Below, one piece after another: positions 1 through 61,234 of a DNA stretch of 64,000 nt (positions are counted from its first letter, which is position 1; each line of letters opens with the position of its first letter). The stretch covers positions 43,746 to 107,745 of the forward strand of contig NZ_FOQE01000003.1 of assembly GCF_900113675.1 (NCBI RefSeq), written 5' to 3'. Both the position numbers and the translations under genes were made by a program. The notes below the pieces were generated by a model, which saw nothing but the letters and a program-made list of their open reading frames with translations, had not been told where the DNA came from and searched no databases. Source of the stretch: Pisciglobus halotolerans (GTDB lineage: Bacteria > Bacillota > Bacilli > Lactobacillales > Carnobacteriaceae).

Positions 1-7
1 TAAGTTT

Positions 8-59
8 GAGTTGGTCAATAAGTAGCGTTAATGACCAGCTTAGAAGTCGGAAAGCAGTT
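8..59. repeat. Possible last unit of a 52-bp hairpin-repeat array
   Basis: The octamer TTGAGTTG recurs exactly 52 bp apart (6-13 and 58-65). The unit between them has an inverted repeat with 9-nt arms (9-17 and 32-40, one G-T wobble) around a 14-nt loop. The arrays at 17.8 kb and 59.2 kb have the same period and nearly the same arm and loop sizes. The left arm AGTTGGTCA also resembles the arms of the 59.2-kb array. Only one full unit is in the window, so membership is an inference. Confidence 0.4.
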
Positions 60-148
60 GAGTTGAACATAAAAAAACAAGAAACAGTAAAATGAGGAAG
101 TTACTTCAGTTAAAGGTAAAGAAACCAAGCGAAAAAGGGGTAGAGCAA

Positions 149-5353: not shown

Positions 5354-7825
5354 TTGATAAAAGATACGTATGCAATTGAAGGAATGACTTGCGCGTCATG
5401 TGCGCAAACCGTTGAAAAAAGTGTAAATAAGTTAAAAGGTATTCAAGATGTTTCTGTCAACTTAGCAACAGAAAAAATGAGCGTTTCTTATGATGGTGCT
5501 GCGTTAAGTGGAAATGATATCGAACAAGCAGTGGAAGATGCTGGGTATAAAGCGTTAAAAAATACAGCGACGCAAAGTTTTGAAATTGAAGGAATGACTT
5601 GTGCATCATGTGCGCAAACGATTGAAAAAAGTGTTGCAAAAGTAGCAGGTGTAGATACTGTCTCTGTCAATTTGGCAACAGAAAAAATGACGGTGAGCTA
5701 TGATGAAGGTGCTGTTTCTACAGGAGATATTTTAAAAGCTGTAGAAGATGCCGGCTATCAAGCCATTCCAGAAACAGCCTCACATGCAGGCGATGACGGA
5801 GCTGACAAACGTCAAGCTCACATTAAAGAATTATGGACGCGTTTCATTTGGTCAGCAATTTTTACGATTCCTTTGTTATATGTTGCCATGGGTCCTATGT
5901 TGCCTTTTGGCGGATTACCAATACCAGGTTTTCTTGATCCTGTACAGCACACAGTAACCTATGCCATTACACAGCTTATTCTAACGCTGCCAGTAATTTA
6001 TTTAGGCCGTTCGTTCTATACAGTAGGGTATAAAGCTTTATTTAAAGGCCACCCTAATATGGATTCTTTGATTGCCATTGGAACATCAGCAGCGCTTTTG
6101 CAAGGAATCGTCATGACAGTGTTGTTGGCAATAGGCCGGGTTGAAGTTCAGCATGGTCATCCGGATTTATACTTTGAATCGGCAGCTGTTATTTTGGCTT
6201 TGATCACTTTAGGTAAATATCTAGAAGCTGTTTCAAAAGGAAAAACGTCAGAAGCAATCAAAAAGCTAATGGGCTTAGCGCCAAAAACTGCACGCGTTGT
6301 CCGTAATGGAGAAGAAGTTGAAATTTCAATTGATGCTGTTGTTACAGGAGACATTTTAGTGGTACGTCCTGGAGATAAAATCCCTGTTGACGGTGTTATT
6401 GTCGAAGGCAGCTCTGCTGTAGATGAATCGATGATCACGGGAGAAAGTATTCCGATCGAAAAGAAAGCCGGCGATAATGTCGTTGGCGCAAGTATCAATA
6501 AAAACGGTTCTTTCCGTTTCAAAGCGACAAAAGTTGGTAAAGATACAACCTTATCACAAATCATTAAATTAGTGGAAGACGCACAAGGTTCAAAAGCACC
6601 GATTGCAAAATTAGCGGATAAAGTTTCGGGAATTTTTGTTCCTATCGTTATAGGGTTAGCAGCTTTGTCTGGTTTAGCTTGGTTCTTCTTAGGCCAAGAG
6701 TCATGGGTATTTGCATTAACGATCACGATTTCTGTATTAGTCATTGCTTGTCCTTGTGCCCTAGGCTTGGCAACACCAACAGCCATTATGGTCGGTACTG
6801 GTAAAGGTGCAGAAAACGGCGTCCTGATCAAGAGCGGTGACGCGTTAGAAGAAGCACAAAAAATTCATACCATCGTATTTGATAAAACAGGTACGATCAC
6901 AGAAGGAAAACCGGTCGTGACAGATATTGTCAACTATAATGGATATGATGAAGAAGAGGTTCTTTTAATTGCGGCTTCAGCGGAAGTCAGTTCAGAGCAT
7001 CCTCTTGGTGAAGCGATTGTTGAAGGCGCAAAAGAACGTCAACTTACCTTCAAAGAGGTCAAAGCATTTAACGCCATTCCTGGACATGGTATCCAAGTTG
7101 AGGTTGATGACCAAACAGTTTTATTAGGAAATAGAAAGTTAATGGTAGAAAATAACATTGATATGATGGATGCACAAGAAGTATCAGATCGTTTAGCCTC
7201 TGAAGGAAAAACTCCAATGTTTATCGCAGCAGACAATCAATTGATCGGGATCGTGGCTGTAGCGGATACGATTAAAGAAAACAGTATCGCAGCCATTGAT
7301 AAATTACATCGCATGGGAATCGAAGTGGCGATGATTACAGGTGATAACAAGCGTACGGCAGAAGCTATTGCCAAACAAGTAGGCATTGATCGCGTCTTTA
7401 GCGAAGTATTGCCAGAAGATAAAGCCAACGAAGTGAAGAAATTGCAAAACGAAGGCTTGCACGTGGCAATGGTCGGCGATGGAATCAATGATGCTCCTGC
7501 CTTGGCTCAGTCTAATGTTGGGATCGCGATTGGTTCTGGTACAGACGTTGCCATTGAATCAGCCGACATTGTATTGATGCGCAGTGACTTGATGGATGTA
7601 CCGACAGCCATTGAATTAAGTCGTGCAACGATCAAGAATATCAAGCAAAACTTATTCTGGGCATTTGCTTATAATACGGTCGGAATTCCAGTTGCTATGG
7701 GTGTCTTACATTTATTTGGCGGACCATTATTGAACCCAATGTTTGCCGGCGCTGCAATGAGCTTGAGTTCTGTATCTGTGTTATTGAATGCTTTACGATT
7801 GAAAGGATTCAAACCTAAAGCCTAA
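5354..7825 (+). CDS. copA: Copper-translocating P1B-type ATPase CopA
   Basis: Membrane Cu(I) ATPase. Two N-terminal HMA domains each carry GMTCASC (near residues 10 and 80). Then follow eight predicted membrane segments with the Cu site [11 protein letters not shown], the phosphorylation motif DKTGT (near residue 510), TGES, the SEHPLGEA nucleotide-site HP motif and GDGINDAP. An ATG at 5345 is directly adjacent to the ribosome binding site AAAGGGG (5338-5344), too close to work well. The in-frame TTG at 5354 is 9 nt from it and is preferred; starting at 5345 adds only three residues. It is the last gene of copYZA. In E. hirae CopA was proposed to import copper, while in most bacteria this type exports Cu(I). 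Confidence 0.93.
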
Positions 7826-12005: not shown

Positions 12006-14198
12006 ATGAGTAAGAGCAAACAACATTCATCAGCAAATGAACATGATATGCACCAGCATCACGATAGTCATGGCAAGGATCATTCAGCTCATCAACATCA
12101 TGACATGAGCAACATGGACCACTCCACGCATCAACATCATAATATGAGTGGCATGGATCACTCGATGCATGCAGTTCACGACATGAGCGGGATGGATCAT
12201 TCAGGTCATGAGAGACATGACATGGGTGGAATGGACCATTCGATGCACATGGGAAACTTTAAACAAAAATTTTGGCTATCATTGATCGTAGCTATTCCCA
12301 TCATTTTAATGTCACCAATGATGGGGATCGAGCTGCCTTTCCAATTCACTTTCCCTGGTTCAGATTGGCTCGTTTTGATTTTGGCAACTTTCCTGTTTTT
12401 CTATGGCGGGGAACCGTTTTTAAGCGGAGCTAAAATGGAATTAAAAGCAAAGAATCCAGCTATGATGACGTTGATCGCAATGGGGATTTCTGTTGCTTAT
12501 GTCTATAGTCTATACTCCTTTATTGCGAACACTTTCCTAGGAGACCATGTCATGAACTTCTTCTGGGAATTAGCGACCTTGATCGTGATTATGCTGCTGG
12601 GGCATTGGATCGAAATGAATGCAGTGATGAATGCCAGCGATGCGCTTCAAAAATTAGCGGAACTATTGCCAGATGAAGTAACACGCAAAAGATCTGATGG
12701 CAGTGAAGAAAAAGTTTCCTTACAAGATGTTCATGAAGGAGACCATCTTGTCGTTCGAGCAGGAGATAAGATGCCGACTGATGGACAAATTGAAAAAGGA
12801 AGTTCAACAGTTGACGAGTCTGCCGTTACAGGTGAATCTCGCGGCGTCATGAAAAAAGTTGGCGACCGTGTGATCGGAGGTTCCGTAAACGGTAATGGGA
12901 CCATTGAAATTGTGGTTACAGGTACAGGCGAAAGTGGTTATTTAGCCAAAGTGATGGACATGGTTCGCCGGGCTCAAGCTGAAAAGTCTAAACTAGAAGC
13001 TTTGTCCGATAAGGTTGCAAAATGGTTGTTCTATATTGCTCTTATCTCTGGTATAGCAGCGTTTATCGTATGGCTATTTCTATCCGATTTGCCAGATGCG
13101 CTCGAACGCATGGTGACCGTGTTCATCATCGCATGTCCTCACGCTTTAGGTTTAGCGATTCCTTTAGTAGTAGCACGTTCTACGTCTATTGCAGCAAAGA
13201 ACGGCTTATTGTTGAAAAACCGTAATGCACTAGAAAATGCTCATGATTTAGATATGATTTTGTTAGACAAAACAGGTACTTTGACACAAGGAACCTTCTC
13301 AGTGACAGGTGTTGAAGCTTTTGATTCTAACGTTAATGAAGAAGAACTTTTAGGCTATATCGGTGCATTAGAAGCGAGTGCGAACCATCCAATTGCAGAC
13401 GGAATCATGAAATATTTGAAAGAACGTTCCATTACACCTAAAAAGGCTACAGATGTGGAAAACATTTCTGGTGTCGGTTTAGAAGGTAAAGTGGACGGCA
13501 AAGAAGTCAAAATCGTAAACGCCAAAGCTTTGAAAAAATTCAATTTAACAGTGGATGAAGAAGCAATCAAGGATTACCAAAACCAAGGAAACACTATCAG
13601 TTATCTATTGATCGAGAACAAACTGATCGGCATGATTGCTTTAGGCGATAAAATTAAACCAGAAGCAAAAGCGTTTATCGCTGCCTTGAACGAACGCGGC
13701 ATTGAACCCGTAATGCTGACAGGGGATAATGAAGAAGCTGCTGCCAGCGTTGCGAAATATTTGGGCATCAATCAATACCATGCTGCGTTGCTGCCAGATG
13801 GAAAAGAAGAAATCATTTCTAAACTGGTAAACGAAGGTCGTCGTGTGGCTATGGTCGGAGATGGAATCAATGATGCACCAAGTTTGGCTCGTGCAACGAT
13901 TGGTATCGCGATCGGTGCCGGAACAGATGTCGCCATTGACTCGGCGGATGTTGTATTGACCAATAGTAATCCGCAAGATATCCTTCACTTTATTGACCTT
14001 GCAAAGCAAACACGGAAAAAAATGATCCAAAACTTATGGTGGGGTGCTGGTTATAATATTGTAGCTATTCCTTTAGCGGCAGGTGTCCTAGCACATTGGG
14101 GAATCATTTTAGACCCAGCTGTCGGCGCTATCCTTATGTCGTTGAGTACAGTGATCGTTGCCCTTAACGCTATGACCTTGAAAATCAAAAAAGATTGA
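12006..14198 (+). CDS. copB: Copper-exporting P1B-type ATPase CopB
   Basis: A 730-residue efflux ATPase. The first 80 residues are a His/Met-rich metal-binding tail made of repeats of the kind HHDMSGMDHS. The membrane metal site is CPH (C377-P-H) in FIIACPHALGLAIP rather than CPC, as in the P1B-3/CopB group. Phosphorylation motif DKTGT (D421), TGES, a SANHPIADG HP motif and GDGINDAP are all intact. In E. hirae CopB exports Cu(I)/Ag(I), and the sequence is strongly similar to what I recall of that protein. Separating it from copYZA by about 4 kb differs from the E. hirae copYZAB order. Confidence 0.95.
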   Translation: MSKSKQHSSANEHDMHQHHDSHGKDHSAHQHHDMSNMDHSTHQHHNMSGMDHSMHAVHDMSGMDHSGHERHDMGGMDHSMHMGNFKQKFWLSLIVAIPIILMSPMMGIELPFQFTFPGSDWLVLILATFLFFYGGEPFLSGAKMELKAKNPAMMTLIAMGISVAYVYSLYSFIANTFLGDHVMNFFWELATLIVIMLLGHWIEMNAVMNASDALQKLAELLPDEVTRKRSDGSEEKVSLQDVHEGDHLVVRAGDKMPTDGQIEKGSSTVDESAVTGESRGVMKKVGDRVIGGSVNGNGTIEIVVTGTGESGYLAKVMDMVRRAQAEKSKLEALSDKVAKWLFYIALISGIAAFIVWLFLSDLPDALERMVTVFIIACPHALGLAIPLVVARSTSIAAKNGLLLKNRNALENAHDLDMILLDKTGTLTQGTFSVTGVEAFDSNVNEEELLGYIGALEASANHPIADGIMKYLKERSITPKKATDVENISGVGLEGKVDGKEVKIVNAKALKKFNLTVDEEAIKDYQNQGNTISYLLIENKLIGMIALGDKIKPEAKAFIAALNERGIEPVMLTGDNEEAAASVAKYLGINQYHAALLPDGKEEIISKLVNEGRRVAMVGDGINDAPSLARATIGIAIGAGTDVAIDSADVVLTNSNPQDILHFIDLAKQTRKKMIQNLWWGAGYNIVAIPLAAGVLAHWGIILDPAVGAILMSLSTVIVALNAMTLKIKKD

Positions 14199-14405: not shown

Positions 14406-14644
14406 CAACTCGTTCACAGACAAGGCTTCTATGATCAAGTTCAGAACGTAAAACCGTCAACTCGTTTACAGACCAGGCTTCTATGAACAAGTTCAGAACA
14501 TAAAACCGTCAACTCGTTCACAGGCAAGGCTTCTATGAACAAGTTCAGCGTGTAGGATCTTCAACTCGTTCACAGAGCAAGCTCCTGTGAACAAGTTGGT
14601 CTCTGTTGCGTTGCAACTCGCCTACAGGATCAGCTACCATGCGA
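14406..14644. repeat. 52-bp hairpin-repeat array, five units
   Basis: Units beginning CAACTCG start at 14406, 14458, 14510, 14562 and 14614, exactly 52 bp apart. Each contains a left arm like AACTCGTTCACAGA and a right arm like TCTATGAACAAGTT separated by about 7 nt, forming an imperfect hairpin, then a spacer of the type CAGAACGTAAAACCGT. The last unit is degenerate. The arms match those of the array at 59.2 kb. It lies between the copB terminator and the mgtA leader and has no open reading frame. Confidence 0.9.
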
Positions 14645-17803: not shown

Positions 17804-17817
17804 AGACAATCGATTCG

Positions 17818-18015
17818 TTTCCTACTCAAATGAATTTTGGATCTTGAGTAGGAACGCAAAGCTCGTATGTTTCCCACTCAACTGAATTTTAATCGTTAAG
17901 TAGGAACGCAAAGCCAGTATGTTTCCCACTCAACTGGACTTTGAACCTTGAGTAGGAACGCAAAGCTCGTATGTTTCCCACTCAACTGGATTTTAGTCCA
18001 TGAGTAGACATGCAA
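17818..18015. repeat. 52-bp hairpin-repeat array, four units
   Basis: Units start at 17821, 17873, 17925 and 17977, exactly 52 bp apart. Each has 9-nt arms such as CCTACTCAA and TTGAGTAGG (17821-17829 and 17844-17852) around a 14-nt loop, then the spacer AACGCAAAGCTCGTATGTTT. The sequence differs from the arrays at 14.4 and 59.2 kb, but period and hairpin geometry agree. Starting 15 nt after the mgtA stop, it may form the 3' end of that mRNA. The rest of the gap to 18139 is AT-rich with no gene. Confidence 0.9.
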
Positions 18016-18139
18016 ATTCTGTTTGCTATATAAATGAGCACTTGGGCAATTTAAGAATTGAAAAAGAAAGGGTAATAAATTAAAATAATAGCTGTATTAA
18101 ACATTTTGTTCATTATTTTATGAGAAGCGAGCATCGACA

Positions 18140-58625: not shown

Positions 58626-59141
58626 ATGGTAGACACTTTTCACATCAAAGAAAATCGACCTTTTCCTAACAATGAACTGCCTGTATTATATTGGCCAAAA
58701 GCAGTTGAAGAGTGGACAAATGAGAAAAAGGCAGGGCAAAAAGTATTAGCGCTTTTTGAAAAGAACGGCTATACGAATGGCTGGGTGAACGGTATTTTTC
58801 CTTATCACCATTTCCATTCCAACACACATGAAGTCCTAGCTTGTATTGCAGGCGAAGCAAAGGTACAATTAGGCGGACCTGACGCTGAGACGTATACTTT
58901 TGCCAAAGGAGATGTGTTGCTACTTCCGGCTGGTGTGGCGCATAAACGCTTAGAAGCAACAGCAGACTTTCAAATTGTAGGTGCTTATCCAAACGGTCAA
59001 AAGCCCGACATGCAAAAAGGGGACACTGAATCTTACGAAGACCTGAAGCAGCGAGCTTCGCAGGTCAAAGTGCCCGAGACAGATCCTTTAGATGGAGCTG
59101 CAGGTGCAGTTCAGCAGCACTGGAAAAATAAAGCACAATAG
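58626..59141 (+). CDS. Cupin domain-containing protein
   Basis: A 171-residue single-domain cupin. The first cupin motif (FPYHHFHSNTHEVLACIAGE) gives histidine and glutamate metal ligands, the second is GDVLLLPAGVAHKRLEATAD. Family members bind a metal and range from isomerases to dioxygenases, and this type is often near oxidoreductases. ATG 58626 is chosen because GTGGGGC lies upstream; 58599 is an alternative. The role is not known. Confidence 0.85.
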   Translation: MVDTFHIKENRPFPNNELPVLYWPKAVEEWTNEKKAGQKVLALFEKNGYTNGWVNGIFPYHHFHSNTHEVLACIAGEAKVQLGGPDAETYTFAKGDVLLLPAGVAHKRLEATADFQIVGAYPNGQKPDMQKGDTESYEDLKQRASQVKVPETDPLDGAAGAVQQHWKNKAQ

Positions 59142-59153
59142 ATCAAAGAGGAG

Positions 59154-59181
59154 GGAAAACAAAAGCGCACTTTTGTTTTCC
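59154..59181 (+). terminator. Probable terminator after the cupin gene
   Basis: A 12-bp perfect stem GGAAAACAAAAG/CTTTTGTTTTCC with a 4-nt loop, followed by a T-rich but interrupted stretch. Confidence 0.6.
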
Positions 59182-59209
59182 TTCCTTATTTTGTTTTAAA
59201 AAAGGGGTG

Positions 59210-59800
59210 ACTTGTTGATAGAGATGGCTTCTGTGACCAAGTTGAGCCGGAAAAAGTCTTCACTTGTTCATAGACCTAGCTTCTGTGACCAAGTTGAGCC
59301 GGAAAATGTTTTGACTTGTTCATAGTCCAAGGTTCTGTGATCAAGTTGAGCCGGAAAATGTTTTGACTTGTTCATAGACCAAGATTCTGTGATCAAGTTG
59401 AGCCGGAAAGAGCCCTCACTTGTTCATAGACTAGACTCCTGTGAACAAGTTGAGTCAAGAAAAATCCTCACTTGTCCATAGACCTAGCTTCTGTGACCAA
59501 GTTGAGCCGGAAAAAGATTTGACTTGTTCATAGACCTGTCTTCTGTGACCAAGTTGAACCGAAAAAAGTCTTCACTTGTTCATAGACTAGGCTTCTGTGA
59601 TCAAGTTGAGCCGGAAAAAGTCTTCACTTGTTCATAGACCAGGGTTCTGTGATCAAGTTGAACCGAGAAAAGATTTGACTTGTTCACAGACCAGGGTTCT
59701 GTGATCAAGTTGAACCGAGAAAAGATTTGACTTGTTCACAGAGATGGCTTCTGTGACCAAGTTGACCTAGGAAAATGGCTTTTCTTGATCATAAGGCAGC
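59210..59800. repeat. 52-bp hairpin-repeat array, eleven units and a degenerate twelfth
   Basis: Units beginning ACTTGTT start at 59210, 59262, 59314, 59366, 59418, 59470, 59522, 59574, 59626, 59678 and 59730, each exactly 52 bp after the last; a decayed copy follows at about 59782. Each unit has arms like ACTTGTTCA and TGACCAAGT or TGATCAAGT around about 15 nt, then a spacer like TGAGCCGGAAAAAGTCTTC. Spacers and loops vary more than arms. No open frame. It fills the gap between the cupin terminator and the pdp promoter. Confidence 0.95.
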
Positions 59801-59864
59801 TAATTGTAGAGAAATCGCGGGATGTATACCATTTTTCTAATTTTCTCATGAGAGAAATAAAATT

Positions 59865-59897
59865 TGAAAGCGTTTTTAACGTGGGTTATGTTAAAAT
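59865..59897 (+). promoter_or_regulatory. pdp promoter region with a cre site
   Basis: TGAAAGCGTTTTTA (59865-59878) is a good match to the CcpA cre consensus. A -10 TAAAAT lies at 59892-59897, so the cre overlaps the -35 region and should mediate carbon catabolite repression of the nucleoside phosphorylase. Confidence 0.65.
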
Positions 59898-59929: not shown

Positions 59930-61234
59930 ATGAGAATGGTAGATTTAATCCACAAAAAACAGTTAGGAAAAGCTTTATCAACGGAAGAAATTCAATTTAT
60001 GATCGAAGCCTATACAGAAGGTACCATCCCAGATTATCAAATGAGTGCCATGCTGATGGCGATTTATTTTGAAGATATGACGGATCAAGAGCGCAGTGAT
60101 TTAACGATGAGTGTGGTTCGTTCAGGAGATCAAATTGATTTGTCAGCGATCGAAGGAGTCAAAGTGGATAAACACTCTACGGGTGGCGTAGGAGATACGA
60201 CGACCCTTGTGTTGGCACCGTTAGTGGCTAGTTTAGGTGTGCCGATCGCTAAAATGAGCGGACGCGGTTTGGGACATACAGGTGGAACGATTGACAAATT
60301 GGAAGCTATTCCTGGATTCCATGTTGAGTTGACACAAGAAGCGTTCATCGAATTGGTCAACAAATATAAAGTTGCGGTGGTAGGGCAGTCTGGAAATTTG
60401 ACGCCGGCTGACAAGAAATTGTACGCCTTGAGAGACGTGACCAGCACAGTTGAATCGATCCCGTTGATCGCCAGCTCCATCATGGGCAAAAAGATCGCTG
60501 CGGGTGCCGATGCCATCGTCTTAGATGTCAAAACAGGTGCAGGTGCTTTTATGAAAACAACAGCGGATGCTGAAAACTTAGCAAAAGCCATGGTCAAAAT
60601 CGGTAACCATGTCGGTCGAAATACGATGGCGGTTATTTCTGATATGAGCCAACCTTTGGGATTTGCGATCGGAAATGCGCTGGAAGTCCAAGAAGCGATC
60701 GATACGTTGAAAGGCAACGGACCGGAAGACTTAGTTGAACTGTGTTTGACACTAGGCAGTCAAATGGCTCATCTAGCGGGTATCGGCAAGGATTTAGAGG
60801 AAGCACGTGGTTTGCTGAAAGAAAACTTAGAAAATGGCAAAGCACTGGAAACATTCCGGACATTTGTAGCAGCTCAAGGCGGCGATCCAAATGTGACCGA
60901 AGATGAAAGCTTAATGCCGAAAGCACGTTACCAAATCGGTGTAGCTGCGCCAAAAGACGGTTATGTTGCTGAAATCGTAGCAGATGAGATCGGCGTAGCG
61001 TCCATGATGCTAGGTGCCGGTCGTGCAACAAAAGAAAGTGAAATTGATTTGGCAGTGGGATTGATGTTGCACAAAAAAGTAGGCGATCGCGTTCAAAAAG
61101 GTGAAACACTGGTCACGATCCATAGCAACCAAGAAAACGTAAAAGATGTAGAAGCAAAAATTTTGGAAAACATGGTGATTGCAGATGCTGCAGAGCCTTT
61201 GACATTGATCCATGAAGTGATCACAGAAGCTTAA
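59930..61234 (+). CDS. pdp: Pyrimidine-nucleoside phosphorylase
   Basis: A 434-residue enzyme that splits thymidine, deoxyuridine and uridine with phosphate to the base and (deoxy)ribose 1-phosphate. Signature: [20 protein letters not shown] at residue 81, [20 protein letters not shown] and the C-terminal biotinyl-like domain ending in [16 protein letters not shown] 59930 after AAAGGGG; an ATG at 59923 stops at once. No deoC or cdd neighbours, unlike many operons. Its stop overlaps the traX-like gene on the other strand by 4 nt, and no terminator lies directly after it. Confidence 0.94.

Follow-up and report, generated by a model that had tools for sequence, protein, structure and literature searches.

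Architecture of the intergenic array

The window, by which we mean the whole stretch of 64,000 nucleotides of the Pisciglobus halotolerans genome that was analysed, holds a tandem array between the genes for a cupin-domain protein and pyrimidine-nucleoside phosphorylase. The array belongs to a repeat family termed F1; another F1 array and arrays of the families F2 and F3 lie elsewhere in the window. The features are:

6..64, + strand: terminal part of an F2 array (TTTGAGTTGGTCAATAA..) that repeats every 52 bp and is truncated at the edge of the window (C75:43751-43809)
14408..14615, + strand: second F1 array, four units of exactly 52 bp, then a half unit of the 3' module type
17817..18020, no strand assigned: F3 array (CCCACTCAA..TTGAGTAGG), 4 x 52 bp
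58626..59141, + strand: upstream neighbour, cupin-domain protein
59148..59187, + strand: predicted intrinsic terminator, 3' of the cupin gene and 5' of the array
59210..59781, + strand: F1 array, 11 tandem 52-bp units (tandem-repeat and unit inspection)
59864..59892, + strand: promoter-like site of the downstream gene, 3' of the array (one found, 1.0 expected by chance)
59930..61234, + strand: downstream neighbour, pyrimidine-nucleoside phosphorylase (pdp)

The units of the array start at 59210, 59262 and so on to 59730, each step being 52 bp without exception; the exact step over eleven units described in the initial annotation thus holds (59210+52n, up to 59781). TRF gave a period of 52, 10.7 copies and 85% match. 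Each unit consists of a 33-bp imperfect dyad (12-bp arms, ACTYGTTCAYAG as the first and CTRTGANCAAGT as the second, around a 9-nt loop) and a 19-bp linker. As had been stated before, no open frame crosses 59210-59781. The array is placed 3' of the predicted terminator of the upstream gene. The F3 array at 17817..18020 is of the same type as the one that adjoins the second of the nuclease genes described below (L320).

An enterococcal host had been assumed initially. The neighbouring pdp protein is nearest to that of Desemzia (Carnobacteriaceae; 81–82% identity), and no Enterococcus was found among its 80 best matches. Two F1 arrays, L001 (59140-59209) and L024, have about 80 bp in common on their upstream side, a stretch that contains a terminator (GGGAAAACAAAAGC..TTTTGTTTTCC), which suggests a local duplication of the gene end together with the array. 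Two coding repeats were also seen in the metal-ATPase region of the window: a His-rich 39-bp in-frame repeat in the N-terminus of a P-type ATPase (12090-12188) and a 210-bp stretch duplicated in frame (5374-5763).

The F1 family in the genome

Further genomic copies, which the initial annotation had proposed to look for, exist. A DNA search with F1 yielded 45 matches in the 2.44-Mb genome and a covariance model at least 159 units, organized in about 30 intergenic arrays, two of them in the window (at 59210 and 14408). The same model detected F1 neither in 17 further family genomes nor in a 300-genome sample of the class; no plasmid or phage match was obtained for the F1 array. The step was exactly 52 bp in 118 of 126 cases and 51 or 53 bp in the other 8. 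The linkers are alike inside one array and different from array to array; CRISPR-type unique spacers were not found in F1 arrays, in line with the earlier statement that this is not a CRISPR array.

Among 26 F1 array consensuses we counted 214 substitutions and 0 length changes. The flanking non-repeat modules of F1 elements show roughly 0–0.4 indels per substitution in clean, close pairs, to which the count was restricted because distant pairs inflate the pooled value of about 0.5. It had been proposed that length and hairpin are conserved more tightly than sequence; of the two, the period is the general invariant (see below). In about half of the F1 arrays the units are at least partly framed by 5' and 3' modules and form a composite repeat with them (16 arrays were taken as candidates, with some of the modules present); the array at 59210 has none. 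Inspection of the composite elements by eye revealed no terminal inverted repeats or target duplications.

One period in unrelated sequences

In 416 kb of the genome, sampled as stretches around F1 arrays and thus biased toward F1, 26-bp windows with at least 21 identities numbered 7021 at lag 52, versus a median of 0 over lags 15–200, and nearly all intergenic tandem repeats detected by TRF have a period of 52. The window, the Bacillaceae genome G301 and the loci of the nuclease genes were not selected for F1. Two other dyad families, F2 (AACTCAAA..TTTGAGTT) and F3 (CACTCAA..TTGAGTA), also form 52-bp repeats in this genome; the sister genus carries F2-type arrays of 51 or 52 bp. In evenly spaced stretches of G301 at least five unrelated array dyads were present, all with 52 bp, and periods of 52 and 53 were found in its relative G148. 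Autocorrelation peaks are at 51/102/153 in the sister genus, against 52/104/156 in the other three genomes (P. halotolerans, G301 and G148). Some 52-bp arrays have no obvious dyad (L248:1896-2128, L275:5011-5370 and L247:13482-13761). The general invariant is thus the period and not the hairpin: 51–53 bp, whatever the sequence. This lies outside the window and was beyond the reach of the initial annotation, as was the accompanying nuclease gene.

No 52-bp arrays were present in 20-kb stretches taken at random from 32 other Bacilli genomes, so the array class is lineage-restricted. In six Bacillus/Mesobacillus species an array with about 2 to 12 units and a step of 52 is found at the same orthologous position, with sigF on one side and the next operon (spoVA-like by gene length and order) on the other; a seventh species of this group has a one-unit remnant there. 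In genome G003, about 24 units that alternate between two dyads, with a 104-bp super-period, were observed at L310:1-1230, adjoining a nuclease gene of the type described next.

A NERD-family nuclease gene accompanies the arrays

Comparison of array-adjoining genes across genomes led to a gene termed NERD-B. It encodes a protein of ~300 amino acids with a NERD PD-(D/E)XK nuclease domain, a Zn ribbon and a C-terminal HTH-like tail. The match of one such protein (P0001) to the NERD family (PF08378) has an E-value of 1.3e-16 and a score of 61.5 bits, against a curated cut-off of 22.1. The PD-(D/E)XK residues are conserved in NERD-B (E42, Q-x-D71 and E84-x-K86). A search of solved structures gave weak matches to zinc ribbons only, and a single-sequence AlphaFold model of the L092 protein (pLDDT 37) was too poor to use. 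Matches to the defence proteins PglW and MAD6 were weak and probably arise via the common NERD domain. No plasmid or phage match was found for NERD-B.

Three NERD-B genes are present in the P. halotolerans genome. Gene 1 (P0001, on C41) has F1 arrays on both sides, at 100 and 35 bp, and gene 2 (C61:25372) has an F3 array at 76 bp. From these two pairs it was predicted, before the search, that F2 would lie beside gene 3 (C61:22088-22990); F2 repeats were then found on both sides of it, at C61:21277 and C61:23118-23228 (pattern-search coordinates).

The association was assessed in relatives with the best NERD loci of 18 family genomes, taken without regard to arrays. These loci contributed 21 NERD-B genes with flanks; the Macrococcus locus L092, fetched for another reason, brought the set to 22. 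A 51-, 52- or 61-bp array lies within 19–228 bp of NERD-B in 13 of the 22 (at most 10% expected; P=2e-8 at p=0.1, a guide only since the genes are related and form about 11 clades by eye). For comparison, array adjacency amounted to 5 of 48 genes in the window, 0 of 83 and 0 of 32 in random stretches of relatives, and 24 of 303 in G301. In five more NERD-B genes lag 52 was the only periodic signal among lags 40–69, L323 being marginal. NERD-B without an array was found at L313, L324 and L326, which form one clade and lack the conserved C-terminus, and at L321, where the gene is broken. A shorter NERD type (type A) had an adjoining array in 0 of 7 cases. The clade of NERD-B tracks the type of array, F2-like arrays being common to L325 and L327, and at L092 the gene and a dyad array with a 61-bp period are separated by 19 bp. 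Closer NERD-B homologues (E<1e-40) in the class sample were found in G301, G148, G108 and G317, the genomes whose stretches showed non-coding or intergenic 51–53 bp arrays; the arrays were the reason for choosing G301 and G148, but not for choosing G108 and G317. Overall, the linkage between NERD-B and the arrays is strong.

Some further observations concern the same genes. At L321:1384-2310 (genome G002) NERD-B is split into two frames with no array near, and G002 has few F2 repeats. Macrococcus epidermidis has a 62-bp dyad array (GTCCAATA..TATTGGAC) directly 3' of pdp (L049:7336-7615); no NERD-B gene was found within the 13 kb examined there. Several genomes of families f17 and f48 in the class sample encode divergent NERD-B homologues, six or seven per genome.

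Probable DNA half-sites rather than RNA hairpins

The F1 arms carry 1.7 bits per base, the loop and linker 0.6–0.7. The commonest arm variants are mismatches, C.A at positions 4/30 and T.T at positions 6/28. The partly compensating arm changes reported initially did not withstand a test over 81 distinct units, in which only 3 cells change both sides of a pair, versus 12.7 in shuffled columns; covariation at the RNA level was therefore rejected. Strand bias was likewise rejected, the orientation of F1 relative to codirectional genes being the same in about 7 cases and opposite in 6 (counted by hand). The gene contexts of the arrays (codirectional, divergent or convergent) match the background, with 10 of 39 arrays between divergent genes.

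Transcribed hairpins acting as terminators, attenuators or mRNA stabilisers are thus a very improbable explanation. Single units do fold better than shuffles (z of −3.9 and −4.7); against this stand the deficit of double changes, the mixed orientation, the background rate of divergent contexts and the terminator already present 5' of the window array. No Rfam family scored above its gathering threshold for the F1 unit, which also answers the question whether the repeat was catalogued there. Taken together, the lack of covariation, the absence of any preferred orientation or gene context and the predicted upstream terminator fit recognition of a half-site on DNA and do not fit an RNA hairpin; the conservation of the arms points to such sequence recognition.

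Comparison with known repeat systems

The comparison with REP/BIME clusters made initially is of the right kind. Like the REP/BIME repeats of the RAYT (TnpA-REP) system, the F1 repeats are dispersed intergenic imperfect palindromes, and in both systems a nuclease-type gene is flanked by its own repeats, with several gene-repeat pairs per genome. The enzyme here, however, is a NERD PD-(D/E)XK protein with a Zn ribbon and not a Y1 HUH transposase; the repeats are tandem and have a fixed 51–53 bp period in different sequences, and the F1 consensus (ACTTGTTCACAGACCAGGCTTCTGTGATCAAGTTCAG..) has no GTAG or CGTC tag. The absence of a RAYT gene noted for the window extends to the whole genome, which gave 0 matches to Y1_Tnp (PF01797) while control genomes including E. 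coli were positive; RAYT as the partner was therefore rejected. The data suggest, by analogy, a pairing of the RAYT/REP kind with another enzyme, one gene to one repeat family.

Tandem units with an inverted repeat are also a property of centromeres such as sopC of the F plasmid, in which each unit of about 43 bp contains an inverted repeat to which a dimer binds. Unlike sopC, a single plasmid locus, the repeats here form dozens of chromosomal arrays of several sequence families.

About half of the F1 arrays resemble, at least in part, the BOX elements of Streptococcus pneumoniae and S. suis (PMC3049150), which have a 5' module, variable tandem units and a 3' module. The likeness is one of module layout; no sequence relation was noticed. 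Unlike BOX, other F1 arrays have no modules, a NERD-B gene is paired with the arrays and one period recurs in unrelated families. The STAR elements of Staphylococcus aureus likewise lie between genes as tandem repeats with a unit of about 50 nt and locus-specific spacers (PMC3532100). They have a GC-rich 14-bp direct-repeat core, T(G/A/T)TGTTG(G/T)GGCCC(C/A), and their function and mechanism of spread are stated as unknown (PMC3532100). This core is absent from the F1 unit consensus, and no paired gene has been reported for STAR. Searches of the open-access literature in PMC found no publication that describes 52-bp arrays or connects NERD proteins with repeats.

Discussion

The window array is a dispersed copy of F1, and each of the three 52-bp families is physically paired with its own NERD-B gene. 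We consider it probable that the system works in the manner of REP-RAYT with a different enzyme. A more specific version has, in our judgement, an even chance of being correct: NERD-B proteins of diverging specificity would each build and maintain an array family, with a ruler of five helical turns in Bacillota and six in Macrococcus, independently of RAYT, transposons and CRISPR. On the first, more probable view, NERD-B would recognise the half-sites of its own family, in duplex DNA or in cruciforms, and the spacing of five turns between dyads (52 bp; six turns in Macrococcus) would keep the dimers on one face. The nuclease might then nick or cut the dyads, after which repair or recombination could gain or lose whole units and spread arrays to other intergenic sites. 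We infer binding, and cutting or copying, by NERD-B from its domains and the linkage.

A tentative alternative, less probable than the above, involves binding and no nuclease activity: the dyads, which recur on one face of the DNA at intervals of five turns, would be coated by NERD-B or by some other dimer that serves to organise the chromosome, for autoregulation or as a decoy, and the arrays would expand by ordinary unequal recombination. The geometry suits such phased binding, 52 bp corresponding to five turns of B-DNA, the 61–62 bp of Macrococcus to six and the 21-bp offset of the F1 half-sites to two; moreover, the arms are conserved like binding sites, and at the sigF/spoVA-like site six species keep an array with a 52-bp step while its number of units varies. 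The conserved catalytic residues of NERD-B, however, suggest cutting, and the placement of the arrays is neither TF-like nor operon-specific. It is improbable, though not to the degree of the RNA explanation, that the arrays are selfish or neutral composite repeats of the BOX/STAR type, grown by slippage and recombination, whose closeness to NERD-B is coincidental or reflects tolerant sites. The composite half of the F1 arrays, with its likeness to BOX A-B(n)-C, and the differences in unit number between species would fit; drift leaves one period common to unrelated sequences unexplained, and also the enrichment at NERD-B and the successful prediction of F2.

Intergenic tandem repeats like BOX and STAR serve in strain typing, and their origin is still open. 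For one large group of such repeats a candidate enzyme can now be named, together with a quantitative invariant, 51–53 bp regardless of sequence, and testable gene-repeat pairs are predicted. The findings suggest an undescribed repeat-plus-enzyme system in Gram-positive bacteria. If this is true, bacteria would have a way of spreading repeats that does not depend on RAYT, or else a DNA-binding array system of fixed pitch, and a substrate would be assigned to a NERD-domain family for which we found none described in the open-access literature.
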